From: Phycisphaerae bacterium | GTDB taxonomy: Bacteria; Planctomycetota; Phycisphaerae; Phycisphaerales; SM1A02 | Assembly: GCA_016795065.1 (NCBI GenBank) | Contig: JAEUIU010000021.1 | Location: 62,001-126,000 of the forward strand | Direction: 5' to 3' | Length of the DNA stretch: 64,000 nucleotides | Shown here: positions 11,142 to 48,061 of the stretch, in pieces | Position numbering within the stretch: position 1 is the first letter of the stretch | How the letters are laid out: each line of letters starts with the position of its first letter | The notes under the pieces: model-generated | What the model was told of the DNA's origin: nothing | Database searches by the model: none | The model's input: only the letters and a program-made list of their open reading frames with translations | Position numbers and translations under genes: made by a program

Positions 11142-11197
11142 TGGTCACCTCGCTCGCGAGCGGTCGTTCCCGCCCGCGGGACGTTCTGAACGAATCG

Positions 11198-13866: not shown

Positions 13867-13891
13867 GGTGACTCCTCGGCGGAACGCTTTC

Positions 13892-15145
13892 TCACTTGAT
13901 GCCCGCAGTGACCCCGCCGACGTCCCGGAGGACCGATTCGGCCACCGGACCGCTGCGACGAACCAGCCGCTCTCGCTCAAGCTGACGATCGACGATCTCG
14001 TGATTGAGATCGAGGAAGTGCAGCGGCTCGAGCCGGTCGTCCATCGCCTCGCGGAAGACGCGATCGAGACTGACGCGCGTCACCGCCCGTCCGCCGAGAC
14101 CGGCGATCACGGTGTACATGCGCACCTGGGGATTCTGGATGGCCATGCGCAGGTTGTGGGAGACATTGCCCCCGATTCCGACCGAGAGGCTCTTCTCGAT
14201 CGTGATGACCCGCTTGGCGTGGGCTAACGCGTCGTGCAAGGCCTGCGACGGGAAGGGCCGGAACGAGATGAGGCTCACCGCTCCGATGCGGACGCCATCG
14301 GCCCGCATCGCATCGACGACATCCTTGATCGTGCCGTTCACCGAACCGAGCGCGACGACGATCGTCTCGGCGTCCTCGGTTCGGTAAGTCCGGATCAGCC
14401 CGCCGGAGTCTCGCTGGAACTTGGCCTTGAACTCGGCAGCCAGTTCGGGAATGAGTTCGAGAGCCTGCATCTGCTTCGCGTGGGCGAGGTAGCGGACCTC
14501 CATGTAGGCCTCGGGACCGACCATCGCGCCGATCGTCACCGGCTCGTCTGGATCGATGACCTGACGGGGCTCATAGGGCGGCAGGTAGGCGTCGACGTCG
14601 GCCTGCGAGGGCACATCGACCCGCTCGTAGGCATGGGTCAGGATGAAGCCGTCCACGCACACCATGACCGGCATCGAGAGCGCCTCAGCGAGCTTGAATG
14701 CCTGAATGTGCAGGTCGACGGCCTCCTGGTTGGTCTCGGCGAAGATCTGGATCCAGCCGGCATCGCGCAGCGCCATGCTGTCGGTGTGGTCGTTCCAGAT
14801 GTTGATGGGTGCGCCGATCGCACGGTTGCCGACCGTCATGACGATCGGAAGTCCGAGGCCAGAAGCGTTGTAGACCGCTTCCGCCATGAAGAGGATTCCT
14901 TGGCTGGCGGTCGCCGTGTATGAGCGAGCCCCGCAGGCCGAGGCTCCGATCGCGACCGACATCGCCGCGAACTCGCTCTCGACGTTGATGTACTCACAAT
15001 TCGTCAGGGCCCCGCTCTTCACGAGCGAACCGAGTCCCTCAACGATGTGGGTCTGCGGCGTGATCGGATAGGCGCAGATGACCTCGGGCCGACAGAGTGC
15101 CACCGCCTCGGCGATGGCGACCGATCCTTCACACTGCTTCAGCAT
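13892..15145 (-). CDS. porA: Pyruvate:ferredoxin oxidoreductase, alpha subunit
   Basis: A 417-residue alpha subunit with CAYPITPQTHIVEGL at about residues 24-38, NVESEFAAMSVAIGASACGA near 55, the TASQGILFMAEA signature and the pyruvate-type middle region APINIWNDHTDSM. The C-terminal domain includes KSLSVGIGGNVSHNLR. The protein forms half of the active site with PorB. The start at 15145 lies inside the end of porC (17-base overlap), pointing to coupled translation. Confidence 0.92.
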   Translation of the reverse strand: MLKQCEGSVAIAEAVALCRPEVICAYPITPQTHIVEGLGSLVKSGALTNCEYINVESEFAAMSVAIGASACGARSYTATASQGILFMAEAVYNASGLGLPIVMTVGNRAIGAPINIWNDHTDSMALRDAGWIQIFAETNQEAVDLHIQAFKLAEALSMPVMVCVDGFILTHAYERVDVPSQADVDAYLPPYEPRQVIDPDEPVTIGAMVGPEAYMEVRYLAHAKQMQALELIPELAAEFKAKFQRDSGGLIRTYRTEDAETIVVALGSVNGTIKDVVDAMRADGVRIGAVSLISFRPFPSQALHDALAHAKRVITIEKSLSVGIGGNVSHNLRMAIQNPQVRMYTVIAGLGGRAVTRVSLDRVFREAMDDRLEPLHFLDLNHEIVDRQLERERLVRRSGPVAESVLRDVGGVTAGIK

Positions 15146-16251: not shown

Positions 16252-17682
16252 TCAGCGGGTAGCAGCGGCTACCTGCGTCGGCACGGCAGCAAACAGGCCC
16301 GGTACCTTCGGTTCGAGCTTGGCCATGAAGTGCCGCAACACCGGTGGCGACTGGGTGATGCGCATACCGCCGATGCGATCCCGCTTCGCGTGAACGCGCA
16401 TCAGCACCTCGGCCACGTAGTCGACGTGGCTCTGGGTGTACACCCGTCGTGGAAAGGCCAACCGCACCAGCTCGCGCGCTGCTGGCCGCTCGCTTCCGTC
16501 GGGCTGCTGTCCAAACATGACCGAGCCGATCTCGCAGGTCCGAACCCCGCCCTCAAGGTAGATCGCCGCCGACAACGCCCACGCCGGATAGTCGCTCCAC
16601 GCCAGATGCGGAAGCATCGCCGCACCGTCGAGGTACAGGGCATGTCCGCCGGGAGGCGAGATCATCGGGATGCCTGCTTCGGCCAGACGGTCGGCGAGGT
16701 AGGCGATGCTCCGGATGCGGTAGCGAAGGTAGTCCTCCTCAAGCGCCTCGTATAGCCCGACGGCGATCGCCTCAAGGTCGTACCCGGCAAGTCCGCCATA
16801 GGTCGGGAAGCCCTCGGTCAGGATGAGCATCGTCCTGCATCGCCCAACGACCTCCTCGTCGTTGAGGGCGAGGAACCCGCCGATGTTGGCCATGCCGTCC
16901 TTCTTCGCGCTCATCGTGCACCCATCGACCAGCGAGAACATCTCGCGGGCGATGTCAATCGGCGCCCGCCCCCCTTGCCCCGGTTCGCGCATGTGAATGA
17001 ACCAAGCGTTCTCGGCGAAGCGGCAGGCGTCGAGGAAGAACGGAACGCGATGGCGATTGCAGATCTCACGGGCTGCGCGAATGTTGGCCAGGCTGACCGG
17101 TTGCCCCCCGCCGGAGTTGTTCGTCACGGTGATCATCACCAGCGGCACACGACCGGGATGTTCCGACAGCACGCGTTCGAGCCGTTCGAGATCGATGTTC
17201 CCCTTGAAGGGCGCATCGGCCCGGCGCATGCCCTCGGCACAGGGCAGGTCGAGGGCCTCGGCGCCGCGGTACTCGATGTTGGCTCGGGTCGTATCGAAGT
17301 GCGTGTTGTTCGGGACGATGTCGCCGCGGTTGACCATGGCCCCGAAAAGGATTCGCTCCGCGGCCCGGCCCTGGTGGGTGGGGATCACGTAGGCAAGCCG
17401 GGTGATGTCCTTCACAGCGGCCTCGAAGCGGTAGAAGGAATCGGCGCCGGCGTAGGTCTCGTCACCGCGCATCATCATGCCCCACTGATTCGCGCTCAAC
17501 GCGCCCGTCCCCGAATCGGTGAGGAGGTCGATGAGGACGTCCTCGCCGCGCAGGGCGAAGAGGTTCCACCCGGCCTGGCGGAGGGCCTCCTCCCGCCGTG
17601 CCCGCGTCGTTCGGCGGAGCGGCTCGACGGTCTTGATGCGAAAGGGCTCGATGATCGTTTGGAACGGGATCTCGTCACTCAT
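16252..17682 (-). CDS. tnaA: Tryptophanase (tryptophan indole-lyase)
   Basis: A 476-residue PLP enzyme of the tryptophanase / tyrosine phenol-lyase family, splitting tryptophan into indole, pyruvate and ammonia. Family signatures: EPFRIKTVEPLRRTTRA at the start, VLIDLLTDSGTGALS, the PLP-lysine motif TMSAKKDGMANIGG, and FPTYGGLAGYDLEA. It is called tryptophanase because the active-site region reads RTCEIGSVMFG like TnaA (EIGS) and not like the MERG region of tyrosine phenol-lyase, and because SAKKD rather than SGKKD holds the lysine. Start ATG at 17682; an in-frame GTG at 17754, overlapping the stop of the upstream peptidase gene, would add 24 residues that tryptophanases lack. No tnaC-like leader is apparent. 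Its pyruvate product could feed the Por enzyme. Confidence 0.87.
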   Translation of the reverse strand: MSDEIPFQTIIEPFRIKTVEPLRRTTRARREEALRQAGWNLFALRGEDVLIDLLTDSGTGALSANQWGMMMRGDETYAGADSFYRFEAAVKDITRLAYVIPTHQGRAAERILFGAMVNRGDIVPNNTHFDTTRANIEYRGAEALDLPCAEGMRRADAPFKGNIDLERLERVLSEHPGRVPLVMITVTNNSGGGQPVSLANIRAAREICNRHRVPFFLDACRFAENAWFIHMREPGQGGRAPIDIAREMFSLVDGCTMSAKKDGMANIGGFLALNDEEVVGRCRTMLILTEGFPTYGGLAGYDLEAIAVGLYEALEEDYLRYRIRSIAYLADRLAEAGIPMISPPGGHALYLDGAAMLPHLAWSDYPAWALSAAIYLEGGVRTCEIGSVMFGQQPDGSERPAARELVRLAFPRRVYTQSHVDYVAEVLMRVHAKRDRIGGMRITQSPPVLRHFMAKLEPKVPGLFAAVPTQVAAATR

Positions 17683-17750
17683 CGGTAAGGTCGTTTCTGG
17701 TGCGCGAATCGTTAGGGAGCGGGAAACGGGGGAAACATCGTTGGTGCTGA

Positions 17751-19733
17751 TCACTTCGCGCCGGGACCGACGACGGGAATGCGCCGATCCGGCTCATGAA
17801 CACGGCGCTCGACCACGCGCTCGCCCTCCCAGATGATGGAGGTGTCGCGCGTGTAGAAGCGAACCATTCGCAGCCGGCTCCAGCCCGCCTCGCCGTTGGC
17901 GTGGAAGACGGTGATGTACCGGCCGGGACGATCCGGGTGATGCATCGTGTGGAGGACCGTGTTGACCGGAACGCTCCAGCGCTTGCCCGCCAGCGTAAAG
18001 CCCTCGGCATCCACCGCAATCGGGTCGGCGCACCGGGCTAACAGTTCGCCATGGTCGGCAATCGCCTGGCGGCCGATGAGGAGGAGATTCTCGCCGCTGT
18101 CGACAGCCTGGAGTTGCGGCATGTACGAGGTGACTTCACCGCGCGTCTCGGCCGAGGTCACCTTCAATCCGCCGGGCCCCGTCGAACCGGCGATCGTCGG
18201 GACAAGCTGGGCGGCAGGCAGCACCCGATAGAGCCGGAAGTCCGGATCGATCTCGATGTTCGTCTGACGTTCGTCCATGATCACCTGCGGAGGCACCGAG
18301 GAACCGCGCGGGAACTGGGCGGCAAAGGCCTCTCCCGCGTCCTTCGCGTTGGGGACAACCGTCTGTGGCACGGGATGCGATCGCACCCAATGCTCGAAGA
18401 ACCCGTCCAGCCAGCCGACAGGCCGATCTGGCACCGCCGCCTCGCAGGCCCGTTGAATGTCCTTCCAGGTAGCCGGCTTCCCAAGTCGGTCCGCCGCAAA
18501 TCGTCGTAGCGCCTCCCAGAGAACGGTCTCGCGAGCGTCATCGCTCCTTCCGGCCGCCTTCGCGAGGAGATCGCCAAGCATGAAGAAGACGAACGCGCCC
18601 TTGTCGTAGCCGACGAAACGATCAGGCCCGGGCACCGCGGGATTGGCCGACCCGAACTGGCCGAGCGGACCGTCATCGAAGGTCGCCGGATCGGTCGACA
18701 ACTTCATCAGGAGATCGCGTCGGAATCCCCTTCCGGCCTCCGGGCCTTCGTCAGCGACGCGCCGCCAGTAGTTCGCGCCGTAGCTCGTGAGGGCTTCACA
18801 CCAGTTGCCGTCGGAGGGATCGACGTAGACGCCGTTGCCCCACCAGTTGTGCAGGAGTTCGTGATCCAGGTAGCCCGGGGCGAGCGAGCGCGGCGCCATG
18901 CCGACGACCTGCGGTCCTAACACCGTGAAGCCTGGGTAGGCGAAGCCCGACGAGAAGAAGTTCTCGACGATCGAGAAGCGTCGGTAGGGGAACGCGCCGA
19001 GAAGCGGGACGTACAGGTCGAGGTACTTCGTCGCGGCCGAGAGATACATGTCGGCGATGGCAGCATGCTCGTTGGGCACATGCATGACGATCTCGACCGG
19101 ACCGGCACTCGTCGCATGAACCAGTCCGTGCAACTCGTGGCGGTTGCCCACCAAAGCCAAGCCGTCCACCGGCCGCTTCGTCGTCCACGACCAGCAGGGC
19201 TTGTCGAGTGGGCCGTCACCCACCGGGTCACCTGAGGCGACGAACGCCCATCCGTCGACCGGAGTCAACTCGATGGCGATCTGATGCAGGAGCGGACGAC
19301 CATCCGCACCCAGCGGCCGTGGACACCACGCAGCACCGTCGGAGAGAAAGACGCCGTCCGGTCCGATCGTCGCATCCACCGAGAAATTGTGGATCTGGCC
19401 GGGCTTTTCCCCTGCCGCCACATCCTGTTCGAATCGGCCGTGGGCCGTCAGCACGAGGGCTCCCTTCGCCGCGGTCGGATCGAAGCTGATGCGACGTCGC
19501 CCATCCCGCGCCTCTGCGGCGTGAAACGTCAGCGTCTGGTTCCCGCATCGGGCCTCGTCGATGACGACCGACGCGCTCAGGTCAAGGACCAGCGAGCCGA
19601 TGTCGTCGACCGAGAGCGAACTGGTGTAGCGAATCGCGTGCGATGCGGGATCGATCGTCGCGCTGATCCGCTGGTTGTCGACGGTTGTTCCGAGACAGAC
19701 GAGGGCAATGGCAGTCGCAAGCATGGACGCCAT
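17751..19733 (-). CDS. Secreted M1-type (gluzincin) metallopeptidase
   Basis: A 660-residue protein with a short signal peptide (MASMLATAIALVCLGTTV). The zinc site is clear: DHELLHNWWGNGV gives the HExxH pair followed by the N-W-W-G typical of M1 aminopeptidases, and the third ligand Glu comes about 18 residues later in WCEALTSY. The N-terminal beta-rich region resembles the M1 N-terminal domain; the usual GxMEN substrate-binding motif is not obvious, and SIVENFFSSGFAYPG stands near its place. It probably cleaves peptides outside the cytoplasm. It lies upstream of tnaA on the same strand. A copy of the dispersed motif (18038) supplies a TTA codon. Confidence 0.8.
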   Translation of the reverse strand: MASMLATAIALVCLGTTVDNQRISATIDPASHAIRYTSSLSVDDIGSLVLDLSASVVIDEARCGNQTLTFHAAEARDGRRRISFDPTAAKGALVLTAHGRFEQDVAAGEKPGQIHNFSVDATIGPDGVFLSDGAAWCPRPLGADGRPLLHQIAIELTPVDGWAFVASGDPVGDGPLDKPCWSWTTKRPVDGLALVGNRHELHGLVHATSAGPVEIVMHVPNEHAAIADMYLSAATKYLDLYVPLLGAFPYRRFSIVENFFSSGFAYPGFTVLGPQVVGMAPRSLAPGYLDHELLHNWWGNGVYVDPSDGNWCEALTSYGANYWRRVADEGPEAGRGFRRDLLMKLSTDPATFDDGPLGQFGSANPAVPGPDRFVGYDKGAFVFFMLGDLLAKAAGRSDDARETVLWEALRRFAADRLGKPATWKDIQRACEAAVPDRPVGWLDGFFEHWVRSHPVPQTVVPNAKDAGEAFAAQFPRGSSVPPQVIMDERQTNIEIDPDFRLYRVLPAAQLVPTIAGSTGPGGLKVTSAETRGEVTSYMPQLQAVDSGENLLLIGRQAIADHGELLARCADPIAVDAEGFTLAGKRWSVPVNTVLHTMHHPDRPGRYITVFHANGEAGWSRLRMVRFYTRDTSIIWEGERVVERRVHEPDRRIPVVGPGAK

Positions 19734-37012: not shown

Positions 37013-38455
37013 TCATCCGACCGTCAAGGGCAGGAAGTCCCGAACGTTCGCGCATCGGTCCAAAGCCATGGTCGCATTGGCGAGCGCTTCGCACTTCGCC
37101 CGGCCCAGCACCGAGTCGCCTAAAGCGTGGAACTTCACGCTGATCTCCTCTTCGGTCATCGGGTCGCGCGGATCGCCTTTCGGCACGTCGACGCGGGTCG
37201 CGAAGGACCGGCCGTCGTTGAGGACCATGGTCACGCGGCTCGGCTGGAACTTGGGGAAGAGGCTCTCGAACTCGGTGTTGGCGATAACCTTCACCTTGTC
37301 CATGACGCCCGGAAGGCGCGGGTCGCGGATGCGCTCTTCCTTGAACTGGAGCGGCGTCACCATGCCGTCGAGGAGCCCGACCGCCATGCAGTAGGGCAGC
37401 GAGTGGTCCGCAGTCTCCTTCGAGTCGGGACGGTACTTCGCCGGATCACCGAGGATGTCGGCGGCGCGGGCGACGACCTCGACCCGGATCTCGCGCACGT
37501 CATCGGGACGAATCGCGTTCTCCTTCACGCAGCGCATCATCGCCGTCAGCGGAGCGTGGCTCAGGGCCTCGATCGGGAAACTCTTCATGCCGCAATCGAG
37601 AATGCGATAGCGCGCCGCCGGCGTCGAGGGAAGCCCATCCACCAGCATCGCAGTATCGAAGCGAGCCGGCTGGCCCTTGTAGTGAACGTGCCCGAAGACC
37701 GCGTAGAGGCCTTCCTTGCCATCGAACATGTGCTCCGGCCCGGAGTAGCCGTGCTTGGCGAGGAGCGCCGACTCAACACCCATCCTCGTCGCCCACGGGT
37801 CAACGGTGTTCTTCATGTTGGTCAGCTTGCCCGCGGTGACCGCACCGGGCGTGAACGTCCGGCTGGCGCTGATGCCGATCGCCTGCACGGTTTGGTCGAT
37901 TGAGAGTCCTAACACCCTGCTCGCCGCGATCGGCGCGGCGAAGGCGGTCAGCGTCGCGTGGTGCCAGCCGTATTCACGCACGCCGGGCACCCCGAACTCG
38001 CAGAGCCGCTGTTCGATCTCATAGGCGATGATCGTCGCCAGAATCAGGTCTCGACCAGACGCGCCAAGCCATTCGCATAGGGCGAGTGGGCCGCAGATGA
38101 TGTCCGACGGGTGACAGGGATCGGCCTTCCAGTAGATATCGTTGTAGTCCATCGCCCGCACCATGTGCGAGTTCATGAACGCGGCGTCGACCGGATTGGT
38201 CCGGAATCCGGAGACGAAGCAGGTGCATCGCCCTGCCCCTTCCTTCGAGCCGGCCATGTCGCGATGGTGATGCAGGAGAATCTCCGCGTCCTCCTGCCGC
38301 GAGCCGCCCAGCGCGCAGCCGAGCGAATCGAACCAGTAGAGCTTCGCGGCGGTGATCGCCTCGGGGCTCAGGTCCTCGTATCGAAGGGAGGTCGACCACT
38401 CCGCGAGCGAGTGGGAAAGCCAACGCTTGTTACCGGTGGGTGTTGCTGTTGCCAT
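37013..38455 (-). CDS. MmgE/PrpD-family protein (2-methylcitrate/cis-aconitate-type dehydratase or decarboxylase)
   Basis: A 480-residue protein with the family signatures YWFDSLGCALGGSRQEDA near residue 40, DAAFMNSHMVRAMDYNDIYW near 90 (the D-Y-N-D segment of PrpD active sites), HPSDIICGPLAL and GIPGVREYGWHHAT-like text near 160. MmgE/PrpD members act on methylcitrate, aconitate, iminodisuccinate and related acids. Sitting last in an operon with a hydratase, a beta-decarboxylating dehydrogenase and a citrate-lyase-like pair, it probably handles a tricarboxylate. The exact reaction cannot be told. It is separated from the dehydrogenase gene by a 131-base hairpin element. Confidence 0.83.
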   Translation of the reverse strand: MATATPTGNKRWLSHSLAEWSTSLRYEDLSPEAITAAKLYWFDSLGCALGGSRQEDAEILLHHHRDMAGSKEGAGRCTCFVSGFRTNPVDAAFMNSHMVRAMDYNDIYWKADPCHPSDIICGPLALCEWLGASGRDLILATIIAYEIEQRLCEFGVPGVREYGWHHATLTAFAAPIAASRVLGLSIDQTVQAIGISASRTFTPGAVTAGKLTNMKNTVDPWATRMGVESALLAKHGYSGPEHMFDGKEGLYAVFGHVHYKGQPARFDTAMLVDGLPSTPAARYRILDCGMKSFPIEALSHAPLTAMMRCVKENAIRPDDVREIRVEVVARAADILGDPAKYRPDSKETADHSLPYCMAVGLLDGMVTPLQFKEERIRDPRLPGVMDKVKVIANTEFESLFPKFQPSRVTMVLNDGRSFATRVDVPKGDPRDPMTEEEISVKFHALGDSVLGRAKCEALANATMALDRCANVRDFLPLTVG

Positions 38456-38475
38456 GGGAGTTCTCGGAGGGGAGG

Positions 38476-38606
38476 TTCACCGCAGAGATGCAGAGGTCGC
38501 AGAGGCTGACGCAAAGGAGAGGGAGGGAGGGAAGATTGGACAGGTGCCACACACCCCTTTCCTTCCGCTCCTTCTGACCTCCGCGTCCTCCAAACTCTGC
38601 GGTGAA
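38476..38606. repeat. Hairpin repeat element with TTCACCGCAGAG ends
   Basis: TTCACCGCAGAG at 38476-38487 and its exact reverse complement CTCTGCGGTGAA at 38595-38606 bound a 131-base element whose flanks remain partly complementary (GCAGAGGTCGCAGAGG against CCTCCGCGTCCTCC). Elements with CCGCAGAG-type ends occur in intergenic regions of many environmental bacteria; that link is from memory. It lies inside the tricarboxylate operon, between the dehydrogenase and MmgE/PrpD genes. Confidence 0.65.
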
Positions 38607-38623
38607 CAAGCCGTCACACACGG

Positions 38624-39775
38624 TCACGCCGCGTACGCCGCGATGGCCTTGGCGACGTCGAGCGTCGTGTCCTTGCCACCCATGTCGTAGGTGCGGACCT
38701 TGCCTTCGCGGATGACGCGGGCGATCGCCGCCTCGAGGCGCGTCGCTCGCTCGTTCTCGCCGAGCCAGTCGAACATCATCTTGACGGTCAGGAGCATCGC
38801 GATCGGGTTGACCTTGTACTGCCCGGCGTACTTCGGGGCCGAACCGTGAGTCGGCTCGAAGACCGCGTACTTGTCCCCGAGGTTCGCCGAGGGGGCGAAG
38901 CCGAGGCCGCCGACGAGACCGGCGCAGAGGTCGCTGACGATGTCGCCGAACATGTTCTCCGCGACGAGCACCGAGTAGTCCTGCGGGTTCTTAAACATCC
39001 ACATGCAGATCGCGTCGATGTTGGCCTCGTCCGCCCAGATGCCCGGGTAACTCTCGGCCATGTCGCGGAAGACACGGGTCATGAGCCCGCCGGTCTCGCG
39101 CAGGACATTCGGCTTCTCGACCAGCGTCACCCGCTTCCGGCCGTTTCGCTTGGCGAACTCGAATGCCTGTCGGCAAATGCTCTCGCAACCTTGCTTACTC
39201 ATGATGCGGGTGGAGAGGGCGAGATTCTCAAGTCCCTTCTCCTTCCACGCCTTCATCTTCGGATTCGCGCAGAGGGCCGTGTAGATGGCCTCCGGAATCG
39301 GGCGGAACTCGACGCCGACGTAGGAGCCCTCGGTGTTCTCGCGGAAGATCACCTGATCCACCGGCACATCGCCGCCGCCAGGATTGCCCAAGGCCGTCCC
39401 GCGGTAATTCAGCGGGTTCCCCGGGTAGCTCTTGCACGGCCTCATGTTCGTGTGCAGGTTGAACATCTGCCGCAGCTTCACGATCGGGGAGAAGTAACTC
39501 AACCCCTTCGACTTCAGCTCGGGAGCGAGTTCCTTCACCGCGTCGTCCTGCGGCTTGCTCGTGATCGCCCCGAAGAGGCCGCAGGTCGTCGACTGCAGTG
39601 CCTTGACCGTGCGGTCCGGCAACGCGTTGCCCTCACGGCACCAGAACTCCCAGCCGATGTCGCAGGGGACGTATTCGGCGTCGAAGCGCATCGCGTCGAG
39701 CACGAGGCGGGCCGCTTCCATGACATCCTGACCGATGCCGTCACCCGGCATCCATGCGATCGAATACTTGCTCAT
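38624..39775 (-). CDS. Isocitrate/isopropylmalate-family beta-decarboxylating dehydrogenase
   Basis: A 383-residue NAD(P)-dependent dehydrogenase. MPGDGIGQDVMEAA is the N-terminal signature, RENTEGSYVG contains the substrate/NAD contact, AENMFGDIVSDLCAGLVGGLG is the family signature with the metal-binding Asp pair, and FEPTHGSAPKYAG follows. Length and the motif LHTNMRPCKSYPG fit the isocitrate / homoisocitrate / isopropylmalate group; leuC-leuD neighbours are absent, so leucine synthesis is unlikely. In this operon it would oxidatively decarboxylate, or reductively carboxylate, isocitrate or a homologue. It is the gene after the hydratase, 42 bases apart. Confidence 0.85.
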   Translation of the reverse strand: MSKYSIAWMPGDGIGQDVMEAARLVLDAMRFDAEYVPCDIGWEFWCREGNALPDRTVKALQSTTCGLFGAITSKPQDDAVKELAPELKSKGLSYFSPIVKLRQMFNLHTNMRPCKSYPGNPLNYRGTALGNPGGGDVPVDQVIFRENTEGSYVGVEFRPIPEAIYTALCANPKMKAWKEKGLENLALSTRIMSKQGCESICRQAFEFAKRNGRKRVTLVEKPNVLRETGGLMTRVFRDMAESYPGIWADEANIDAICMWMFKNPQDYSVLVAENMFGDIVSDLCAGLVGGLGFAPSANLGDKYAVFEPTHGSAPKYAGQYKVNPIAMLLTVKMMFDWLGENERATRLEAAIARVIREGKVRTYDMGGKDTTLDVAKAIAAYAA

Positions 39776-39817
39776 AGGACTTCCAGCGAAAAAGGAGGCT
39801 TGATGGGGGAGTGGGAT

Positions 39818-41815
39818 TCAGTGGGACTGTGCGGCGATGCGTCGTGAGACCACCGCTTCCGCACCACCGGCGACGACCAGTTCCTGGGCAACCGGCGAGA
39901 GCGGAGCGAAGGGGAACGTACGATCGCCGCAGCGGATGGACGAGGCACGATAGTCGATGGTGATCTCGGGACCGATGCGCGTCGCCTCGGTGGCGCCGGC
40001 CAGGAGCGAGCGAAGGTACTCGACGAACTCGGGGCACTCGAAGACGACGAAGCCGTTGTTGAAGGCGTTGCGCTTGTACGTTTCGCTGAAACTCGTCGCG
40101 ACCACGCAGGGAATGCCGAAGTGCTTGAGCGCCGTGGCCGCCTGCTCGCGCGACGAGCCGGTGCCGAAGTTGCGGCCACTGACGATGATGTCGCCGGGGC
40201 GGGCCGTGGTTGCAAAGGACGGATCGTAGTTTTCGAAGAGGACCCGGGCCATCTCGGCCGGCGTGATCGAATCGTTATAGGTGTGCTTGCCTGCGAAGAT
40301 CCCGTCGGTGTTGAGGTGGTCGCGATCAAGAAGAAGCGCCCGACCCCGCACCACTGGCGGAAAGCCGTCGATCACCTCGACCGCCCCGACCTCGGGCTGC
40401 TTCAGCTCGATGGTTCGGGTTGACCAGCGAATCGCCTCGGCGGAGAAGCGATAGGGCGAGGCGATCTGTCCGGCGATCGCTGAGGCGGCGACCACCGCCG
40501 GCGAGGCGAGGTACACCAGGCCCTCGCGATCGCCCATGCGCCCCTCGAAGTTGCGGTTGGTCGAGGAGATGCCCACTTCGCCTTTGCGGATGAGCCCCTT
40601 GCCGAGCCCGATGCAGGTTCCGCAGCCGGGCGGCAACTCGATCGCCCCCGCGTCGGTGAGGGTCTTCCAGACGCCGCTCTCGCGGGCCTTTCGCTCGATC
40701 GTGGCGCTGGCCGCCGCCAGATAGAACTCGACGCCGGGTGCGACGCGCTTGCCGCGCACGACGTCGGCGGCCGCGACGAGGTCGGCGTAGCGGCCGTTCA
40801 CGCAACTCATCAGCCACGCCTTGTGGATGCGGATCCCCTTTGCCTCAATTTCAGGCAACGAGGTGATGGTCCGGACGTCATTGGGTCCGGCGACGTGAGG
40901 CACGATCGTGCCCAGGTCCAGTTCCAGCTCGATCGCGTAGATAGCGTCGGGATCGGCGGCGAACTCGCGGCGCGACTGCCACCATCCCTCGACATCGGCC
41001 CGCGTATAGCCGCCGTGCGAGGTAGCGATCTTGTCGCCGTCGGCAAGGGCATCGGCACGTGCCAGCAGCCAGTCCAGGAGCGTCGCGTCAAAGGGGAAGA
41101 CCCCGGCGAGCGCGCCCCACTCGGTGGTCATGTTGGCGATCGAGAGCCGCTCGTCGATCGACATGGCCGCGATACCGCCGTCGCCGTCGACAAACTCGAC
41201 GGCATGATTGAGGACCTCGTCATGCGAGAAGAGCCCGCAGAGGGCGATGATCACGTCCTTGCCGACCACGCCCGGACGAAGGTGGCCGCGAAAGGTCACC
41301 TTGGCGACCGGCGGAACCTGCCACCAGGTCTCGCCCGTCGCCCAGACGCTGGCCGCGTCGGTGCGCACGACCGGCGTTCCGAGGGCGCTCAGGCCGCCGT
41401 AGATGTTCGAGTGGGAGTCGCTCCCGACCACCATCGCACCGGGCACGACGTAGCCCTGTTCGATCATGATCTGATGGGCGATGCCCGTGCCTGCCGGAAA
41501 GAAGTCGATCCCCTGGGCCCGGGCGAACTGCTCGATCTTGGCGTACTTGCCGAGGTTCTCGGGGGTCAGGTTCTGGATGTCGTGATCGATCGCGAAGACC
41601 GGCTGTCGCGGGTCACGCACCTTCGCGGGCCGCTCCTTCGAGTCGCCGGCCATCTGCCGAAACTTCGGCATGACCGCCCCGGTGTTGTCGTGGGTCATGA
41701 TGTGCCGCGGCCGGATCATGACGAACGTCCCGCAACGGGCGACCGCGCCAGGACCCAGGCTCGTCGCATAGCGGGTGGCGATCTTCTCGACCAGGGTCAG
41801 CTTCTGGCTCGTCAT
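39818..41815 (-). CDS. Aconitase-superfamily hydratase, fused large and small domains, homoaconitase-like
   Basis: A 665-residue [4Fe-4S] hydro-lyase with the large-subunit signatures HDIQNLTPENLGKYAKIE, GTGIAHQIMIEQGYV, GSDSHSNIYGGLSALG and IANMTTEWGALAG. Cluster Cys are in SCVNGRY (about residue 335, replacing the usual SCTN) and GCGTCIGLGKG (about 397). The C-terminal swivel domain contains SGRNFGTGSSREQAATAL. Several of these strings (THDNTGAV, DAASVWATGETWWQVPPVA) resemble fungal homoaconitase more than AcnA/AcnB, so citrate, homocitrate or another tricarboxylate may be the substrate. The ATG at 41815 overlaps the previous stop by one base (TGATG). Confidence 0.87.
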   Translation of the reverse strand: MTSQKLTLVEKIATRYATSLGPGAVARCGTFVMIRPRHIMTHDNTGAVMPKFRQMAGDSKERPAKVRDPRQPVFAIDHDIQNLTPENLGKYAKIEQFARAQGIDFFPAGTGIAHQIMIEQGYVVPGAMVVGSDSHSNIYGGLSALGTPVVRTDAASVWATGETWWQVPPVAKVTFRGHLRPGVVGKDVIIALCGLFSHDEVLNHAVEFVDGDGGIAAMSIDERLSIANMTTEWGALAGVFPFDATLLDWLLARADALADGDKIATSHGGYTRADVEGWWQSRREFAADPDAIYAIELELDLGTIVPHVAGPNDVRTITSLPEIEAKGIRIHKAWLMSCVNGRYADLVAAADVVRGKRVAPGVEFYLAAASATIERKARESGVWKTLTDAGAIELPPGCGTCIGLGKGLIRKGEVGISSTNRNFEGRMGDREGLVYLASPAVVAASAIAGQIASPYRFSAEAIRWSTRTIELKQPEVGAVEVIDGFPPVVRGRALLLDRDHLNTDGIFAGKHTYNDSITPAEMARVLFENYDPSFATTARPGDIIVSGRNFGTGSSREQAATALKHFGIPCVVATSFSETYKRNAFNNGFVVFECPEFVEYLRSLLAGATEATRIGPEITIDYRASSIRCGDRTFPFAPLSPVAQELVVAGGAEAVVSRRIAAQSH

Positions 41816-42417
41816 CACGCGCCCTTTCCGGCAGCCGCCGCGGCGAGGGCCCGCTTCCCGAGCAGCTTGGCGATGTCAAAGTCGATGAAGTCGGCGTGAT
41901 GGAAAATGATGCTCTCGATCGAACGATCCACCTTGTCACCCTCGTGGCTGTGGGTCGCGACGATGTGCATCACCTCCGCCGGCAGGCCGTGCTTGTAGCA
42001 GAGCGCCACGCCGCTGAAAGGATGACGAAGGAGGTCGCCGAACGCTCCCTTGATGATCTTGCCGTTGGCGTCCTTGTCGAACTCGAGCATCTTGCCCACG
42101 TCGGCCAGGAGCGATCCGGCGAGGAGATGGTCGCGATGGACAGGGACGCGATCGCCGAAGGTCTCCTGAAGGACGTCGGCGATGCGAAGGCACTGCCGAG
42201 CGCAAGAGTTCAGGTGCTCGACGAAGGCCATGCGAATCGGTCCGGCGAGCAGTGTGAAGGGAATCGCCCGCAGCTCGTCGAAGGTCCAGCCCCGCCCGCC
42301 GCAGCCGTTGCGGATGGCGTCATCCCAGACCGCGGCAACCCGCTCCCGCAGGCCCGCATCGCGGATCTGAAGGAGGTCCGGAAAGAGCTGGGCGATGTCG
42401 TTGACGGTGAAGGCCAT
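41815..42417 (-). CDS. HD-domain-like protein with a degenerate metal motif
   Basis: A 200-residue helical protein. HRDHLLAGSLLADVGKMLEF near residue 95 follows the HD-phosphohydrolase layout, but the diagnostic His-Asp doublet is Ala-Asp. Later His residues (KHGLPAEVMHIVATHSHEG, IIFHHADFIDFD) fit the rest of an HD fold. It may be a binding or regulatory relative rather than a phosphohydrolase. It lies between the citrate-lyase-like pair and the hydratase in one operon, coupled to the hydratase by a one-base overlap, so its job is probably tied to this pathway. Confidence 0.68.
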   Translation of the reverse strand: MAFTVNDIAQLFPDLLQIRDAGLRERVAAVWDDAIRNGCGGRGWTFDELRAIPFTLLAGPIRMAFVEHLNSCARQCLRIADVLQETFGDRVPVHRDHLLAGSLLADVGKMLEFDKDANGKIIKGAFGDLLRHPFSGVALCYKHGLPAEVMHIVATHSHEGDKVDRSIESIIFHHADFIDFDIAKLLGKRALAAAAAGKGA

Positions 42418-42460
42418 GGCGAGTGCTCATCCCCTGAAGTTCGAGTCAAGAAGTGCTGAA

Positions 42461-42471
42461 CGAATCGTTAG
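42461..42471 (-). repeat. Dispersed motif CTAAC-NN-TTCG (representative copy)
   Basis: One of 12 exact copies found by eye. Plus-strand orientation: 6824, 7465, 8895, 12277, 18038, 29440, 50784, 51626. Reverse orientation: 11191, 17705, 42461, 52436. In copies at gene ends the TAA is the stop codon; inside genes it creates TTA leucine codons. Function unknown. Confidence 0.6.
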
Positions 42472-44183
42472 GAACCGATGCGGCCGTCGTAGGCGTGTCG
42501 GACCGGGTCGATGCGGCGCATCGGCTTCTCGCGGGTCCGCTCCTCGACCACGTGGGCGACCAGCCCCGGTGTTCGGGCGATCATGAAGATCCCGTTGAAG
42601 ACAGCGGGATCCATGCCGAGGTCGGAGAGAATCGCCCCGATCGCCCCGTCGACGTTGATCGGCAACGGGCGCCCGATCGCGGCGAAGGCCCGCTCGACCG
42701 CCCGAGCCGCCGCGATGGCGGTGGCGCCGACGTCGACCATCCCGGCTTCCTTGGCGAGTTCGAAGAGCCGCACGGTGCGTGGGTCCTTGCTGTGCACGCG
42801 GTGGCCGAAGCCCGAGATGCGCGCCCCTTCCGACTTCACGCGGCTAACCTCGTCGGTTGCAATCTCATCAAGCGAACGTCGCTGCGATGCCGAACGCGAG
42901 AGCAGGCCGCGGAGGTAGAGGGCGCAGTCCTCGATCGCCCCGCCATGATGACGGTTGATGCTCATGATGCCGGCGGCAACGCTGGCGGAGAGCGTTGCCC
43001 CGGTGCTCGCGACGGTCCGCGCGGCAAGCGTGCTCGGCGGCGTGCAGCCGTGGTCGATGCTGGCGACGAGAATCGCGTCCATCAGCCGGGCGACGCGCTC
43101 ATCCGGCAGGCGACCGGTGAGGATCAGGTAAACCGCCGCCCCGAATCCCACCTTGCCCATCAGCGAGGCGACGTCGTGGCCGCGCACCGCGACCTCGTTG
43201 GGACGGATGCGGGTGACGGCACTCGTCCAGACCGCGTTCCGCTCGGCGTCATCCATCAGGCTCTTCGACGAGCGGGCCCGTAACACCTCGACGACCGCGG
43301 TGGGCAGCTCGCCGAACGCCGTGACCACGCGGGCGCCGACGGACTCCAGCGCCGCGACCTTTCCCGCGTGGGTGCCGCGGTTACCTTCGATGATCGCACC
43401 GGCGTGGCTGAATCGAGTGCCGGCCCGCGCTGCCTTGCCGCCGATGTAGGCGATGACCGGCTTGGTGACGCGACCGGAGCGAACCAGATCGGCCAACTCC
43501 TCTTCCTGCGACCCGCCGATTTCGCCGAAGACAACGATCGCATCGGTCGCCGGATCCTCCTGAAATCGCAGCGCCGCGTCGGGGATGCGCACGCCCAAGA
43601 CCGTGTCGCCACCGACGTGAACGATCGTTGAGATGCGAACGCCGGCCTGGCCGAGGTAGTAGCCGGTGCTTGACGCCATACCGCCGGAACGCGAGATGAC
43701 GCCAGCACCGGTGCCACCCTCGAGGGGCGGCTTGAACCACTCGCGGGCCGACTCGGCTCGCCCGCCGATCATGCCAAGGACGGCCTTGCCGGGGCTCGCC
43801 ACGCCGAGCGTGTTCGGGCCGAGCACCGTGGCTCCGCGGGCCTTCGCGGCCTTCATGATCGCCATGGCGTCCCACACGGGAACGCGATCCGCGACAAGGA
43901 CGACGAGTCTGACGCCGGCGTCGATCGCATCGATCGCCGCCTCGCGCACGCCGGCTGCCGGAACGAAAAGCACCGATGCGTCGACCTGGCCGAGCGTCGA
44001 CACGGCGTCCTTCGCCGATCCGAAGACGGGCACGCCGAGCACCGATTGGCCGCCCTTCCCTGGCGTCACGCCGCCGATGACCCTGGTGCCGTAGTCAAGC
44101 ATCAGCCGCGTGCGGGCCTGGCCCTCACGCCCGGTGATGCCGTGGACCAGGACGGTAGTGCGTTCATCGACGAGGATGCTCAT
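42468..44183 (-). CDS. ATP-citrate-lyase-like subunit: succinyl-CoA synthetase alpha fused to citrate synthase domain
   Basis: A protein of 571 residues. Residues 1-290 match the CoA-ligase alpha module: GITGREG and GGVTPGKGG bind CoA, and SHAGAIIEGNRG carries the phospho-His (His260). Residues 320-571 match citrate synthase: NRHHGGAIED (His412/413), SGFGHRVHSKDPR (His461) and NVDGAIGAILSDLG (Asp512) give the catalytic His-His-Asp set. This fusion is diagnostic of the ATP-citrate lyase large subunit, which cleaves citrate with ATP and CoA to acetyl-CoA and oxaloacetate. A citrate analogue is possible. Start overlaps the beta-subunit stop (ATGA). The stop lies in a copy of the dispersed motif. 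Confidence 0.85.
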   Translation of the reverse strand: MSILVDERTTVLVHGITGREGQARTRLMLDYGTRVIGGVTPGKGGQSVLGVPVFGSAKDAVSTLGQVDASVLFVPAAGVREAAIDAIDAGVRLVVLVADRVPVWDAMAIMKAAKARGATVLGPNTLGVASPGKAVLGMIGGRAESAREWFKPPLEGGTGAGVISRSGGMASSTGYYLGQAGVRISTIVHVGGDTVLGVRIPDAALRFQEDPATDAIVVFGEIGGSQEEELADLVRSGRVTKPVIAYIGGKAARAGTRFSHAGAIIEGNRGTHAGKVAALESVGARVVTAFGELPTAVVEVLRARSSKSLMDDAERNAVWTSAVTRIRPNEVAVRGHDVASLMGKVGFGAAVYLILTGRLPDERVARLMDAILVASIDHGCTPPSTLAARTVASTGATLSASVAAGIMSINRHHGGAIEDCALYLRGLLSRSASQRRSLDEIATDEVSRVKSEGARISGFGHRVHSKDPRTVRLFELAKEAGMVDVGATAIAAARAVERAFAAIGRPLPINVDGAIGAILSDLGMDPAVFNGIFMIARTPGLVAHVVEERTREKPMRRIDPVRHAYDGRIGS

Positions 44184-45829
44184 GACGCACCTCCTCGATC
44201 TTCCTCTTGATGATGGTCGGCGTGTGCACCCTTGTGACGTCCGCCTCCGCGGCAAGGACAGTCATGGCAGCGCCCGTCGCAGCCGCGCTCGGCCGCCACG
44301 TAGGGAGCGACCAGCGGGGCGAGATTCGGAATGTCGATCTCGACAAAGAGCCCGTCGATGCCATCGCGGCGGCACTCGACCTCGCAGGCAATCATGTCAC
44401 TGTCCTTCTGGGCGAAGTCGGCGTCCGGCAGCGTTCGGGTCGGCGCACCGTGATCGTCGCGCAGGAGTCCGTTCGAGCGGGCTGCGATCGCCGGACCGTT
44501 GCGGCTCCACGCCGCGCGATCGATCCACAGGGTTCCGCTGCGCAGCGGCCACGAGATGGACTCGCCTCGGCCGACGAACTCGGGCCGACGCGGATGGCGC
44601 GGGCGCCATGGGCCGGCCTTGGATTGAGCCACGAGAGCGGTGAAGCGGGCGGCGATGCGTGCCGGCGGATCGGTCTTGCGATAACCCTCGACGATCGCCG
44701 GCAAGCCGCGTGTCGCCGACTGGAGGATCTCGACCGCCCGATCCTCGGTATTTCCGCCGAGTCGGATCACTGCGGGGATCGAGAGCTCCAATTCCCAGAA
44801 CGCCTTGGCCAGTCCATACGCCGACCAGAACTGCTCCTGGCTGGCGACGCCCGAACCGGAACCGAAGTAGCCGACGAGATCCGGCTGGGCGAGAATCAAC
44901 CGAGCCGCGGCGTATACCTTCGCAGGCGATGGATTGCCGCTGGTGTCGGTGAAGTCGGCGAGCGTGAAACCTTCGGCGCTCACCGCATCCATCGACATCA
45001 TGGAGCCGCCGCCACCCGCGCCGTGGAAGCCAATGAGACCGCGCGAACCGTCCGCGGCGCAGACCGCCAGTTGTGCGAAGTAGAAGGTACCGCGGTGATC
45101 CGACTGCTCGACCGCGTAGGCGACACGCTCGAGTGCCGTCGGGGGATGGTCCAGTTCGCGGGCGATGTCGATCCCAAGGTCGGGATGACGGAAGACCGCG
45201 TAATCGTCGACCGTCACGCGGCAGTCGAGGGCGATGGCCACGCCGTCCTGCGTGAGGGCGAGCGGGTTGATCTCAAGCGACCTCGCCTCGTGTCGACGGG
45301 CGACATCAAAGAGCTTGACGACGAGTGAGCGAACCGAGGATGCCGCAGCCGGTGCAAGACCTAACGACTCGATCGCGGTATCCAGCACGATTGTGTCCGG
45401 TCCTGTGTCCACATCGCAGGCAATGCGGCGGACCGCGGCGGCCCGTTCCTCAACGCCGCTCCCACCGCTGGCGGAAAGGAGGAGGATCGGCGCACGTTCG
45501 CGATCATCAATCGAGAACGAAACAAAGAGCTCGCGTGCAAACGCCAGCCGCTCCTCGATGAGCACCTCGGTGACCGGAAACTGCCCCACCTTCATGGCGA
45601 GCATGCGGGCCGCGTGGTCGCGAGCTTCTTCTGCGGTCTTCGCAACGGCGACTCCGCCCATCGCAGCCCGGCCGGTCGCCCACGCCTGGATCTTCACCAT
45701 GCAGGGGAAGCCGATTCGGGTCGCAACCTTCGCTGCCTCCTCGGGGCTTCGGGCCACTCCCCCTTTGGGGACCGGAATGCCGGCATCGCGGAGAAGAGCC
45801 TTGCCTTGGTGTTCGGCGAGTCGAGCCAT
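44180..45829 (-). CDS. ATP-citrate-lyase-like / succinyl-CoA synthetase beta-type subunit with Cys/His-rich tail
   Basis: A 549-residue ATP-grasp protein: LAEHQGKALLRDAGIPVPKG at the start is the ATP-grasp_2 entry, KIQAWATGRAAMGGV binds ATP, ARSLEINPLAL is the metal-binding strand, and GAGGGGSMMSMDAV plus YFGSGSGVASQEQFWSAY belong to the ligase domain. About 150 extra residues follow the domain and end in CDGRCHDCPCRGGGRHKG and more His, a likely metal-binding tail I cannot match to a family. With the alpha-fusion subunit downstream it forms the ATP-dependent citrate-cleaving pair. It is first in the operon, behind the promoter at 45948. The ATG at 45829 is chosen for family alignment. Confidence 0.8.
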   Translation of the reverse strand: MARLAEHQGKALLRDAGIPVPKGGVARSPEEAAKVATRIGFPCMVKIQAWATGRAAMGGVAVAKTAEEARDHAARMLAMKVGQFPVTEVLIEERLAFARELFVSFSIDDRERAPILLLSASGGSGVEERAAAVRRIACDVDTGPDTIVLDTAIESLGLAPAAASSVRSLVVKLFDVARRHEARSLEINPLALTQDGVAIALDCRVTVDDYAVFRHPDLGIDIARELDHPPTALERVAYAVEQSDHRGTFYFAQLAVCAADGSRGLIGFHGAGGGGSMMSMDAVSAEGFTLADFTDTSGNPSPAKVYAAARLILAQPDLVGYFGSGSGVASQEQFWSAYGLAKAFWELELSIPAVIRLGGNTEDRAVEILQSATRGLPAIVEGYRKTDPPARIAARFTALVAQSKAGPWRPRHPRRPEFVGRGESISWPLRSGTLWIDRAAWSRNGPAIAARSNGLLRDDHGAPTRTLPDADFAQKDSDMIACEVECRRDGIDGLFVEIDIPNLAPLVAPYVAAERGCDGRCHDCPCRGGGRHKGAHADHHQEEDRGGAS

Positions 45830-46026: not shown

Positions 46027-46944
46027 TCATCCCGACGTCGGTGCCGGCAACCTGCACTCGGGCTCGTACCCACACTCTCGCATGAGCTGCGCGATCGGCT
46101 CGCAGAGTTCGGCGGCCATGGACTCATCGAGATGGTTGCGCCAGTCTCCAGCGACTCCGCTTCGAAAGAACGCCTTGTTGTCCTGGTCGCCACGGGCCCG
46201 GCCGCCCGACCGCTTCTTGAAACTCCCCGATTCGATGCAGCCCGACATGGACTGGGGCGACGCGTCGACGCCGAGGAAGGAGAGACAGCGGGTGAGTTGC
46301 CCCGGTTCATCCGCAAGCAAGTCCTCGTATCGCACCTCCAGGTAACGATCGGGAAATGCTCTCGCGGCGGCTCGCGACTGGCGGATTGCCTGAGCCCACG
46401 AGCCCTGCATGAACTGGCGGAAGTGTTCCGTCCGCTTGGATTCGTCGCCCTGAGCGAAGTGGAAGTAGCCGCTGGTGGCCGCATCGCGCGGATCGCGAAC
46501 GACGTGCAGGAAGAGTGCGTCAGGATAGAGCTGGTTCAGGAGCGGCAGGCAAACCGAGTGTTGGGGCGTCTTGTCTCCGACGACGCGCACGCGGCTCATG
46601 TCCTTCCCCGTGCCAGAGGCCATTTCGATATAGCGAAAGAGCTGCATGTCCAAGAGCTGACGCATGCACATGAGCAGGTCGACGTCGCGCAGGTGCGTGA
46701 CCGGATCAGGCACGAACTGGGACTGGTCTGCGTTGAACGCCTGAAACCCCTTGCTGATCGCGGGGAACATCCGCCACGCGAAGCGACCCTCACCGTGGAT
46801 CACGATCTCGGGATGCCCGGCGAGCTGGTTCTGAATCCAGGTGGTGCCTGACTTCGGGCAGCCGATGACGAAGAGCTTTCGCAAGCGTCCGACGAGATCC
46901 TGCGAGCGGCGCCAGACGGGGATGAGTTCGGGGACGGTGGGCAT
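46027..46944 (-). CDS. Sulfotransferase family protein
   Basis: A 305-residue protein with the PAPS 5'-phosphosulfate loop VIGCPKSGTTWIQNQL near residue 27, the 3'-phosphate motif HVVRDPRDAATSGYFHF near 150 and VRYEDLLADEPGQL near 205. It would move a sulfuryl group from PAPS to a carbohydrate or other hydroxyl. There is no membrane segment. A second, divergent sulfotransferase follows upstream on the same strand 45 bases away, so the two probably modify the same surface polymer or metabolite. Confidence 0.85.
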   Translation of the reverse strand: MPTVPELIPVWRRSQDLVGRLRKLFVIGCPKSGTTWIQNQLAGHPEIVIHGEGRFAWRMFPAISKGFQAFNADQSQFVPDPVTHLRDVDLLMCMRQLLDMQLFRYIEMASGTGKDMSRVRVVGDKTPQHSVCLPLLNQLYPDALFLHVVRDPRDAATSGYFHFAQGDESKRTEHFRQFMQGSWAQAIRQSRAAARAFPDRYLEVRYEDLLADEPGQLTRCLSFLGVDASPQSMSGCIESGSFKKRSGGRARGDQDNKAFFRSGVAGDWRNHLDESMAAELCEPIAQLMRECGYEPECRLPAPTSG

Positions 46945-46989
46945 GGGATTGCGGAGCTCGGCGGCTGAGAACGTGGAACAACCGGACCG

Positions 46990-47808
46990 TCACCGACGGG
47001 TCGAATCGGAAAGGCTTGCCAGCGCGGCCCACGAGGCGTCCCGCCAACCGTTTTCGTTGTGTCCGCTTGGCTGCGGGAACTGGTGATCGACCTGAAATGC
47101 CAATCGCCGCAGCGCCTCCGCGGTGTCGCGCATCTCGCGGGCAAGTCGTCCCGATTCGGTTGGCTGCTGTTGGGGGATGAGGAGCCTGTCTGCCTCGACA
47201 TCGACACCAGGAACCGCACAGAAGTACCCCTTCAGAAGCGTGAAGAACTGGGCGCCGTAGTGGTTGAAACACTTGTAGTCGTTGCGGACGTGAATCGACT
47301 CCGCCGCGCAGGCCTCGCGAATCCGATCCATGTCCGGCTCGGTCTCGCCCAGGAAGCAGACGACTTGCGTCAACATGGCGACGGGCTCGTCGACGAGATC
47401 GGCATAGTTGACCACAAGCCGCCGGTCGACATGGTCCAGAACCCACTTCTTATAGAAGCGCATCCAGTAGCCGATCTTGTTGATGGCGAAGTTCGTCCAC
47501 GCAGCGGGGGTGTCCGGCAAGCCCGACTGCTTGACATTCAGCTTGAAGAGCGAAACGAGGCTATCGAGCGGGTAACGGATCTGAACGATGTATTGCCGGT
47601 CACTTCGGATCGGCGTGTCGAGGTCGAAGTCGTGGTTCTTCTGGAAGCGCGTCTCTGGATCGAGGTCAAGCCGCCGTTCAGGGTGCGCATACTGTTCGCA
47701 ATAGCGCATGCCTTGCTCGCCGAAGTAGCGCAAGAGCAGCCCCTCGAGCAGGTGATGACCTGAACGCGGGAAGCTCACGCACTCGGTTCGGTGGACGATT
47801 GTCGGCAT
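46990..47808 (-). CDS. Divergent sulfotransferase-like protein
   Basis: A 272-residue protein starting at the ATG at 47808. SFPRSGHHLLEGLLLRYFG near residue 10 is the phosphosulfate-binding loop of a distinct sulfotransferase branch (P-R-S-G-H-H). IVQIRYPLDSLVSLFKLNV near 90 matches the R-x-P-x-x-x-x-x-S 3'-phosphate motif, and VVNYADLVDEPVAML the following helix. The substrate is unknown. It lies directly upstream of the other sulfotransferase gene. Confidence 0.75.
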   Translation of the reverse strand: MPTIVHRTECVSFPRSGHHLLEGLLLRYFGEQGMRYCEQYAHPERRLDLDPETRFQKNHDFDLDTPIRSDRQYIVQIRYPLDSLVSLFKLNVKQSGLPDTPAAWTNFAINKIGYWMRFYKKWVLDHVDRRLVVNYADLVDEPVAMLTQVVCFLGETEPDMDRIREACAAESIHVRNDYKCFNHYGAQFFTLLKGYFCAVPGVDVEADRLLIPQQQPTESGRLAREMRDTAEALRRLAFQVDHQFPQPSGHNENGWRDASWAALASLSDSTRR

Positions 47809-48061
47809 GCGTTGCCTTGAAGCAAACCGATTGCCATCGAGCCGGGGCGAGGGCGAAGCGCTCGACGATTGCGCCAACACCTCCGATGGACTGGTGCCAA
47901 TCAGCGACCTCAGCCGCGGCCTCCCTTTGGGCCAGTACCCGGGCGGCCTCTACCCGAACGGACAAGACTCCCCTCCGGGGCCACCTCACAGCCTCGCAGG
48001 GCAGCAGGCCGCGAGCATCGCGACCGGTTTCGCGGTCAAGAACAGGTGCAGCAAGGTCTGA

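Follow-up and report, generated by a model that had tools for sequence, protein, structure and literature searches.

Which substrate is served by an operon that combines an ATP-citrate-lyase-like gene pair with an aconitase-type hydratase, a beta-decarboxylating dehydrogenase and an MmgE/PrpD-family protein? The question is raised by six genes on the minus strand of contig JAEUIU010000021.1 of a Phycisphaerae bacterium (GenBank assembly GCA_016795065.1; Phycisphaerales, SM1A02). They lie in a stretch of 64,000 nucleotides (contig positions 62,001 to 126,000), called the window throughout, and coordinates are those of the window. The genome holding it (4.99 Mb, 89 contigs, 95% complete) is designated G000; G and L numbers are genome and locus labels within the present analysis. 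A sequence-only reading of the window had proposed that the operon either completes a reductive tricarboxylic acid (TCA) cycle or breaks down a citrate analogue. We retain action on an analogue as possible and favor homocitrate: with both reaction directions counted, the sequence comparisons make it quite probable that this is a homocitrate operon with an ATP-dependent lyase convergent on ATP-citrate lyase.

Operon layout and proposed reactions

All six genes (37013..45829, minus strand) are intact and open at the following positions, and the domains that had been predicted for this minus-strand unit were found.

GRASP, 44180..45829, minus strand: ATP-grasp CoA-ligase beta subunit, 549 residues, with a C-terminal extension
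CSL, 42468..44183, minus strand: ligase-alpha/citryl-CoA-lyase fusion, 571 residues from the ATG at 44183
HD, 41815..42417, minus strand: HD-fold protein, 200 residues, in which the HD doublet reads AD
ACN, 39818..41818, minus strand: fused homoaconitase-type [4Fe-4S] hydratase, 666 residues, starting at GTG 41818 or ATG 41815
IDH, 38624..39775, minus strand: beta-decarboxylating dehydrogenase, predicted homoisocitrate dehydrogenase, 383 residues
PRPD, 37013..38455, minus strand: MmgE/PrpD-family protein, 480 residues, predicted homocitrate dehydratase

Most junctions overlap or are short, as originally described: GRASP/CSL and HD/ACN overlap by 4 bases each (-4), and the gaps at CSL/HD, ACN/IDH and IDH/PRPD are 50, 42 and 168 bases. 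The Pfam domains are ATP-grasp_2 in GRASP, CoA_binding, Ligase_CoA and Citrate_synt in CSL, Aconitase fused to Aconitase_C in ACN, Iso_dh in IDH, and the N- and C-terminal MmgE_PrpD domains in PRPD.

Given the homoaconitase-type hydratase, the best-scoring model for IDH, the linkage of the cassette to LysW and the presence of TCA enzymes elsewhere in the genome, the six genes most likely form a homocitrate segment. The best-supported reading, at about even odds in our estimate, is that this segment, along the path acetyl-CoA + 2-oxoglutarate <-> 2-oxoadipate, operates in G000 as ATP-dependent homocitrate cleavage. GRASP and the N-terminal half of CSL would convert ATP, CoA and homocitrate to homocitryl-CoA through phospho-His260, and the C-terminal half of CSL would split homocitryl-CoA into acetyl-CoA and 2-oxoglutarate. 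The interconversion of homocitrate with homoaconitate would fall to PRPD, that of homoaconitate with homoisocitrate to ACN, and that of homoisocitrate with 2-oxoadipate and CO2 to IDH.

The ligase/lyase pair and ATP-citrate lyase

GRASP and CSL have the architecture of ATP-citrate lyase (AclA/AclB, ACLY), with an ATP-grasp beta subunit, a phospho-His CoA-ligase alpha part and a fused His-His-Asp citryl-CoA-lyase domain. The active-site residues noted earlier were located in CSL, the phospho-His at residue 260 of the ATG-started 571-residue protein and the citrate-synthase His-His-Asp set in the motifs HHGGA (412), GFGHR (H461) and NVDGA (D512). On these grounds the sequence-only reading had called the fusion the mark of ATP-citrate lyase, an identification that its relationships do not support. 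Against PDB sequences, the N-terminal half of CSL is nearer SucD (2yv2, 254 bits) than citryl-CoA synthetase (6hxq, 156 bits), and the C-terminal half is nearer citryl-CoA lyase (6hxp, 178 bits) than the AclA domain (63 bits); 6hxp and 6hxq are Hydrogenobacter proteins. Whole CSL scores 166 bits against AclA 6hxj across both halves; for comparison, true AclA from Sulfurovum scores 703 bits against human ACLY. GRASP matches PF08442 at 118 bits, and its best solved relative is SucC 3ufx (151 bits, match up to residue 372), with AclB 6hxj at 101 bits. It is 57-65% identical to eight relatives and 22% identical to Sulfurovum AclB, and the citrate-binding domain PF16114, a marker of AclB, is weak and sub-threshold in it (21.1 bits, cut-off 26.8). 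The C-terminal extension of GRASP, with an IACEVECRR-type motif, is kept in eight relatives and mostly absent from the aligned Sulfurovum AclB.

Two trees of 21 rows each, one of the ligase half and one of the lyase half, split AclA from CSL at 100/100; CcsA is in neither and was compared by score only. In the ligase-half tree CSL is the neighbor of SucD and is grouped with the unfused genes of two class relatives (G113 and G107). In the lyase-half tree CSL falls outside the AclA clade, in a part near the citryl-CoA lyases that is open, with long branches (the G131 lyase, 6hxp and one citrate synthase) and an unsettled exact sister. With a SucD-like ligase half and a lyase half placed outside the AclA clade, the pair is not ATP-citrate lyase by descent, and a true ATP-citrate lyase was rejected. 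Tree placement, the check put forward with the sequence-only reading, thus went against a citrate-cleaving ancestry as far as AclA is concerned, with CcsA covered by score.

The existence of unfused relatives in G113 and G107 suggests that the CSL fusion probably arose separately from AclA. This unfused form resembles Hydrogenobacter CcsA/CcsB plus Ccl, a SucCD-like ligase with a Ccl-like lyase, whereas the proteins of the window and of most relatives are fused and linked to homoaconitase-type genes, and the ligase scores higher against SucD than against 6hxq. On sequence grounds, GRASP/CSL is likely an ATP-linked homocitrate lyase/synthase. No CSL relatives were confirmed among plasmids at an E-value of 1e-60.

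Hydratase, dehydrogenase, PrpD and HD proteins

ACN scores 712.9 bits against the homoaconitase model TIGR00139, above the NCBIfam cut-off of 529.9, and the cut-off is exceeded in all four ACN proteins scanned, those of the window, L086, L090 and L094. The aconitase cysteines are present (C339, C399 and C402), and comparison of the small-domain loop with 2pkp and 3vba gave no decisive sign of the substrate. The best NCBIfam model for IDH is the AksF2 homoisocitrate dehydrogenase (321.7 bits, under the cut-off of 540). Homoisocitrate dehydrogenase is the top model in three of the three IDH proteins compared (window, L086 and L090), all below cut-off, and IDH is 42% identical to homoisocitrate dehydrogenase 3asj, the Thermus enzyme.

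PRPD matches PF03972 (224.5 bits) and PF19305 (144.2 bits), and its residues D103, H115, H165, K215 and H300 are invariant across 10 sequences that include IDS-epimerase and cis-aconitate decarboxylase. Fungal homoaconitases are described in PMC3556520 as interconverting homoaconitate and homoisocitrate only, so that dehydration of homocitrate needs a second enzyme; this would be a job for PRPD. A PrpD-family dehydratase adjoining an aconitase-family hydratase is also found in the methylcitrate cycle (PrpC, PrpD, AcnB/AcnD, PrpB), but the operon has a beta-decarboxylating dehydrogenase in place of an isocitrate-lyase-type PrpB. PRPD is far under the 2-methylcitrate dehydratase cut-offs (90.9 versus 950, 80.9 versus 575 and 57.7 versus 458 bits), and the methylcitrate cycle was rejected for this reason.

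The HD protein scores 27.2 bits against HDIG, just short of the cut-off of 27.6, and structure comparison (Foldseek) returned the HD fold and no function. It had been described as degenerate, and the HD doublet is indeed AD in 16 of 16 aligned homologues, which lack the intact H...HD...D metal motif. PDB sequences gave nothing informative for HD, and no relatives were confirmed among viral contigs. HD is a near-constant partner of the cassette to which we assign no role.

Related functions elsewhere in G000

Outside the operon, G000 encodes two citrate synthases, an AcnA-type aconitase (925-residue frame, typed by its Pfam match and length) and a TCA-type isocitrate dehydrogenase (490.2 bits, just below the cut-off of 509). 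Its family matches comprise two aconitase-family and two Iso_dh proteins, all TCA-type or the operon's own. No HMGL-type homocitrate synthase was found in this 95% complete genome, in which the sole HMGL match is an HMG-CoA lyase (418.6 bits, cut-off 246). LeuA-, LeuB- and LeuC-type proteins were likewise not found in G000, which is likely a leucine auxotroph by its gene content. A leucine-type role of the operon was considered and rejected, there being no LeuA/LeuB/LeuC-type protein in G000 and no LeuA in the operon.

Linkage to LysW genes and alternative acetyl-unit modules

Searching with HD instead of CSL uncovered alternative lyase modules. In another planctomycete genome, G131 (locus L086), genes for LysW, LysX, LysY, LysZ, LysK, a citryl-CoA-lyase-like protein, HD, ACN, IDH and PRPD lie on one strand, with overlaps at LysX/LysY and lyase/HD. 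LysX (316.5 bits, cut-off 275.6), LysY/ArgC (353, cut-off 233.6, passing as ArgC), the [LysW]-aminoadipate kinase LysZ (341.2, cut-off 223) and the [LysW]-lysine hydrolase LysK (412.4, cut-off 363) all exceed their cut-offs; LysW was found by pattern, with the C-terminus EEDWGE. The citryl-CoA-lyase-like gene (150.3 bits, below the cut-off of 245) sits where a homocitrate synthase would be expected. Because LysX and LysZ are present in L086, the core is tied in this one case to 2-aminoadipate chemistry. Among the fetched loci, LysX/Y/Z/K matches together with the LysW pattern were seen in L086 only; LysW/X/Y/Z/K were not seen in the window, and the rest of G000 was not searched for them.

The cassette shares homoaconitase- and homoisocitrate-dehydrogenase-type enzymes with the Thermus aminoadipate pathway of lysine synthesis, together with LysW/X/Y/Z/K in G131. 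It differs in having a citryl-CoA-lyase-type enzyme in place of the HMGL-type homocitrate synthase, in the addition of HD and PrpD and in its fused aconitase, which contrasts with LysT/LysU; G000 also has LysA.

In G142 and G065 (loci L088 and L090), a CitDE fusion and CitF follow PRPD in place of GRASP/CSL:

CitDE/CitF stretch beside the cassette, L088, 5404-8222
CitDE/CitF stretch beside the cassette, L090, 11836-15463

These recall citrate lyase CitDEF but lie below the citrate-lyase cut-offs, CitF narrowly (495.8 and 500.2 bits against 501.45), and the CitD and CitE parts do not reach theirs; the window operon has no CitDE/CitF and carries the ATP-dependent module instead. In G031 (L089), HD, ACN, IDH and PRPD occur without any such module in the stretch seen. 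HD-ACN-IDH-PRPD is thus a core found alongside three acetyl-unit modules of different kinds. In L091 and L092, aconitase-family genes are found close to more distant HD homologues (37-39%), possibly a sister system; in L092 the large and small aconitase subunits are in separate frames.

Conservation of the six-gene set

A scan of species genomes with CSL gave 73 loci, eight of which (L066-L073) match the ligase part alone (37-42%). Co-occurrence was counted in 49 CSL genomes, comprising 47 of the 65 close loci and the class relatives G113 and G107. Orthologues of HD were present in 45 of these genomes, of ACN in 44, of IDH in 42 and of PRPD (at least 65% identity) in 45, so that the six-gene set occurs together beyond chance; G190 alone has none of the four. 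The view of this locus as a coherent operon acting on tricarboxylates, with ligase alpha fused to citryl-CoA lyase and counterparts in other genomes, is upheld.

The search for the same gene order elsewhere returned nine loci in which the complete set keeps its order and strand. Six are closely packed (L011, L018, L020, L025, L043 and L044), and in L016, L036 and L062 the spacing is wider or other genes are inserted; the contigs of many other loci stop early. Of the 44 genomes having both HD and ACN, 33 have them at most 5 kb apart on the same strand; the corresponding figures are 28 of 42 for ACN and IDH and 16 of 39 for IDH and PRPD. Most carriers are titled as Planctomycetota (Phycisphaerales and others) or Verrucomicrobia (Spartobacteria/Chthoniobacterales and others); one contig bears the label Acidobacteria (L076) and one Deltaproteobacteria (L046, where GRASP and CSL are the only two of the genes). 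Within the class the distribution is patchy: of 150 genomes, 3 have CSL at an E-value of 1e-100 and 10 have HD at 1e-20, G000 included. No description of the six-gene operon was found in the literature listings searched, which covered homocitrate and citryl-CoA enzymes and planctomycete lysine biosynthesis.

Neighboring genes

Two further features lie elsewhere in the window.

por-kor genes, 7346-15145, minus strand: two 2-oxoacid:ferredoxin oxidoreductases (Kor- and Por-type, alpha and beta) and two GltD-like flavoproteins
Possible accessory gene, 16255..17754, minus strand: tryptophanase/tyrosine-phenol-lyase-like pyridoxal-phosphate (PLP) enzyme, near the por-kor genes

The por-kor genes are real, as reported earlier, yet by themselves make no argument for a reductive TCA cycle. 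Full-length cut-offs are passed by Kor alpha and one GltD-like protein only, and the C-terminal ends of the GltD-like flavoproteins match ferredoxin-type subunits. The PLP enzyme scores 655 bits against NF009709 (cut-off 285) but stays below the equivalog cut-offs for tryptophanase and tyrosine phenol-lyase. It is 55% identical, at 16312-17661, to the in-operon copy of L010, one of six loci (L006, L007, L010, L014, L094 and L139) with an orthologue inside the operon. Elsewhere, some Spartobacteria have a cluster of thiolase, acyl-CoA dehydrogenase and mutase genes upstream of the operon, L005 and L006 have a CoA-transferase between GRASP and CSL, and succinate dehydrogenase (SDH) genes follow PRPD in L036, L043 and L044. 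The thiolase-cluster, CoA-transferase, SDH and PLP-gene contexts leave the substrate unsettled. Directly upstream of the window operon is a sulfotransferase-family gene (46030-47880, minus strand), and beyond it a second of sulfotransferase-like look.

Direction of the segment and alternative substrates

Cleavage is weakly favored for G000, given that this genome has LysA, that the module in the window is ATP-dependent and that two relatives have a cleavage-type module, CitDE/CitF. LysA is over its cut-off in 33 of the 51 genomes tested, including G000, where lysine can therefore come from diaminopimelate; no LysA match was found in G142 or G065. Run as synthesis, the same segment would have GRASP/CSL condense acetyl-CoA with 2-oxoglutarate, with ATP recovered at homocitrate release and 2-oxoadipate passed on to 2-aminoadipate or lysine. 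We hold this as a tentative possibility, to which the cassette inside the LysW operon of G131, the failure to find a standard homocitrate synthase in G000 and the closeness of the ligase to SucCD, which runs ATP-forming in the TCA cycle, all lend weight, while LysA in G000, the restriction of the LysX/Y/Z/K and LysW pattern to L086 and the citrate-lyase-type module of two relatives argue against it. A saccharopine/lysine-dehydrogenase-like gene (at least 67% identity) occurs in 13 of the 51 genomes and in several of them lies within the cassette or next to it, which speaks for the homocitrate segment as such; that of G000 is 44% identical. The solved protein 3abi is a lysine dehydrogenase.

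Several observations weigh against homocitrate cleavage as the reading of this operon. Cleavage requires reductive carboxylation of 2-oxoadipate, and G131 has LysA as well as the LysW operon, so LysA is compatible with synthesis. Among Phycisphaerales, LysA over the cut-off is missing from 9 of 13 genomes with the saccharopine-dehydrogenase-like gene versus 7 of 30 in the comparison group, a contrast that leans to synthesis (Fisher p 0.007, with kinship not controlled and some genomes incomplete); among the seven, LysA is represented in G196 by pieces at contig ends and in G188 by two pieces. The LysW linkage was seen in G131 alone, where the lyase shares about 31% identity with CSL, and the substrate is carried over from G131 to the window by orthology at 54-68% identity. 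IDH reaches none of the curated cut-offs. Its pocket is mixed, with Val at the position of Arg85 of 3asj, a residue with a role in homoisocitrate dehydrogenase, and Lys/Arg one place later; its substrate loop gave no decisive sign. The wider proposal, a backward homocitrate half of the lysine pathway in which 2-oxoadipate would be carboxylated to homoisocitrate and then split into acetyl-CoA and 2-oxoglutarate by a convergent ATP-homocitrate lyase, as a so far unrecognised route of planctomycetes and Verrucomicrobia, is rather unlikely in our assessment.

Other substrates would place the operon in different pathways. The pair could be an ATP-citrate lyase that arose a second time by convergence. 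Accompanied by a dedicated aconitase and isocitrate dehydrogenase, it could close a reductive TCA cycle together with por-kor, a cycle that the sequence-only reading had suggested; the retained architecture and active sites, the por-kor genes in the same window and the SDH genes after PRPD in three loci fit such a route. It is nevertheless improbable, as neither CSL half lies with AclA in the trees, ACN is a homoaconitase-family hydratase, the cassette stands in a LysW operon in G131, G000 has citrate synthases, AcnA-type aconitase and TCA-type isocitrate dehydrogenase elsewhere, and a reductive TCA cycle has no place for PrpD and HD. The atypical IDH pocket, the thiolase, acyl-CoA dehydrogenase and mutase genes beside the operon in some Spartobacteria, and the combination of PrpD with an aconitase-family hydratase, which is the methylcitrate-cycle pairing, would suit another tricarboxylate such as 2-methylcitrate or a further citrate homologue. 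We find this very improbable in view of the LysW linkage, the PRPD scores, which fall far short of the cut-offs for 2-methylcitrate dehydratase, and the tertiary carbon of methylisocitrate, which on chemical grounds is not oxidisable by IDH.

Implications

If the homocitrate assignment is true, a citrate-synthase-fold enzyme would act as a homocitrate synthase or lyase, and the architecture of ATP-citrate lyase would have a second origin. The operon is small and conserved and encodes soluble enzymes, so the choice between homocitrate and citrate is directly testable. A ligase/citryl-CoA-lyase fusion would then not count by itself as a sign of ATP-citrate lyase or of autotrophy through the reductive TCA cycle, a point that would matter for carbon-fixation claims drawn from genomes.

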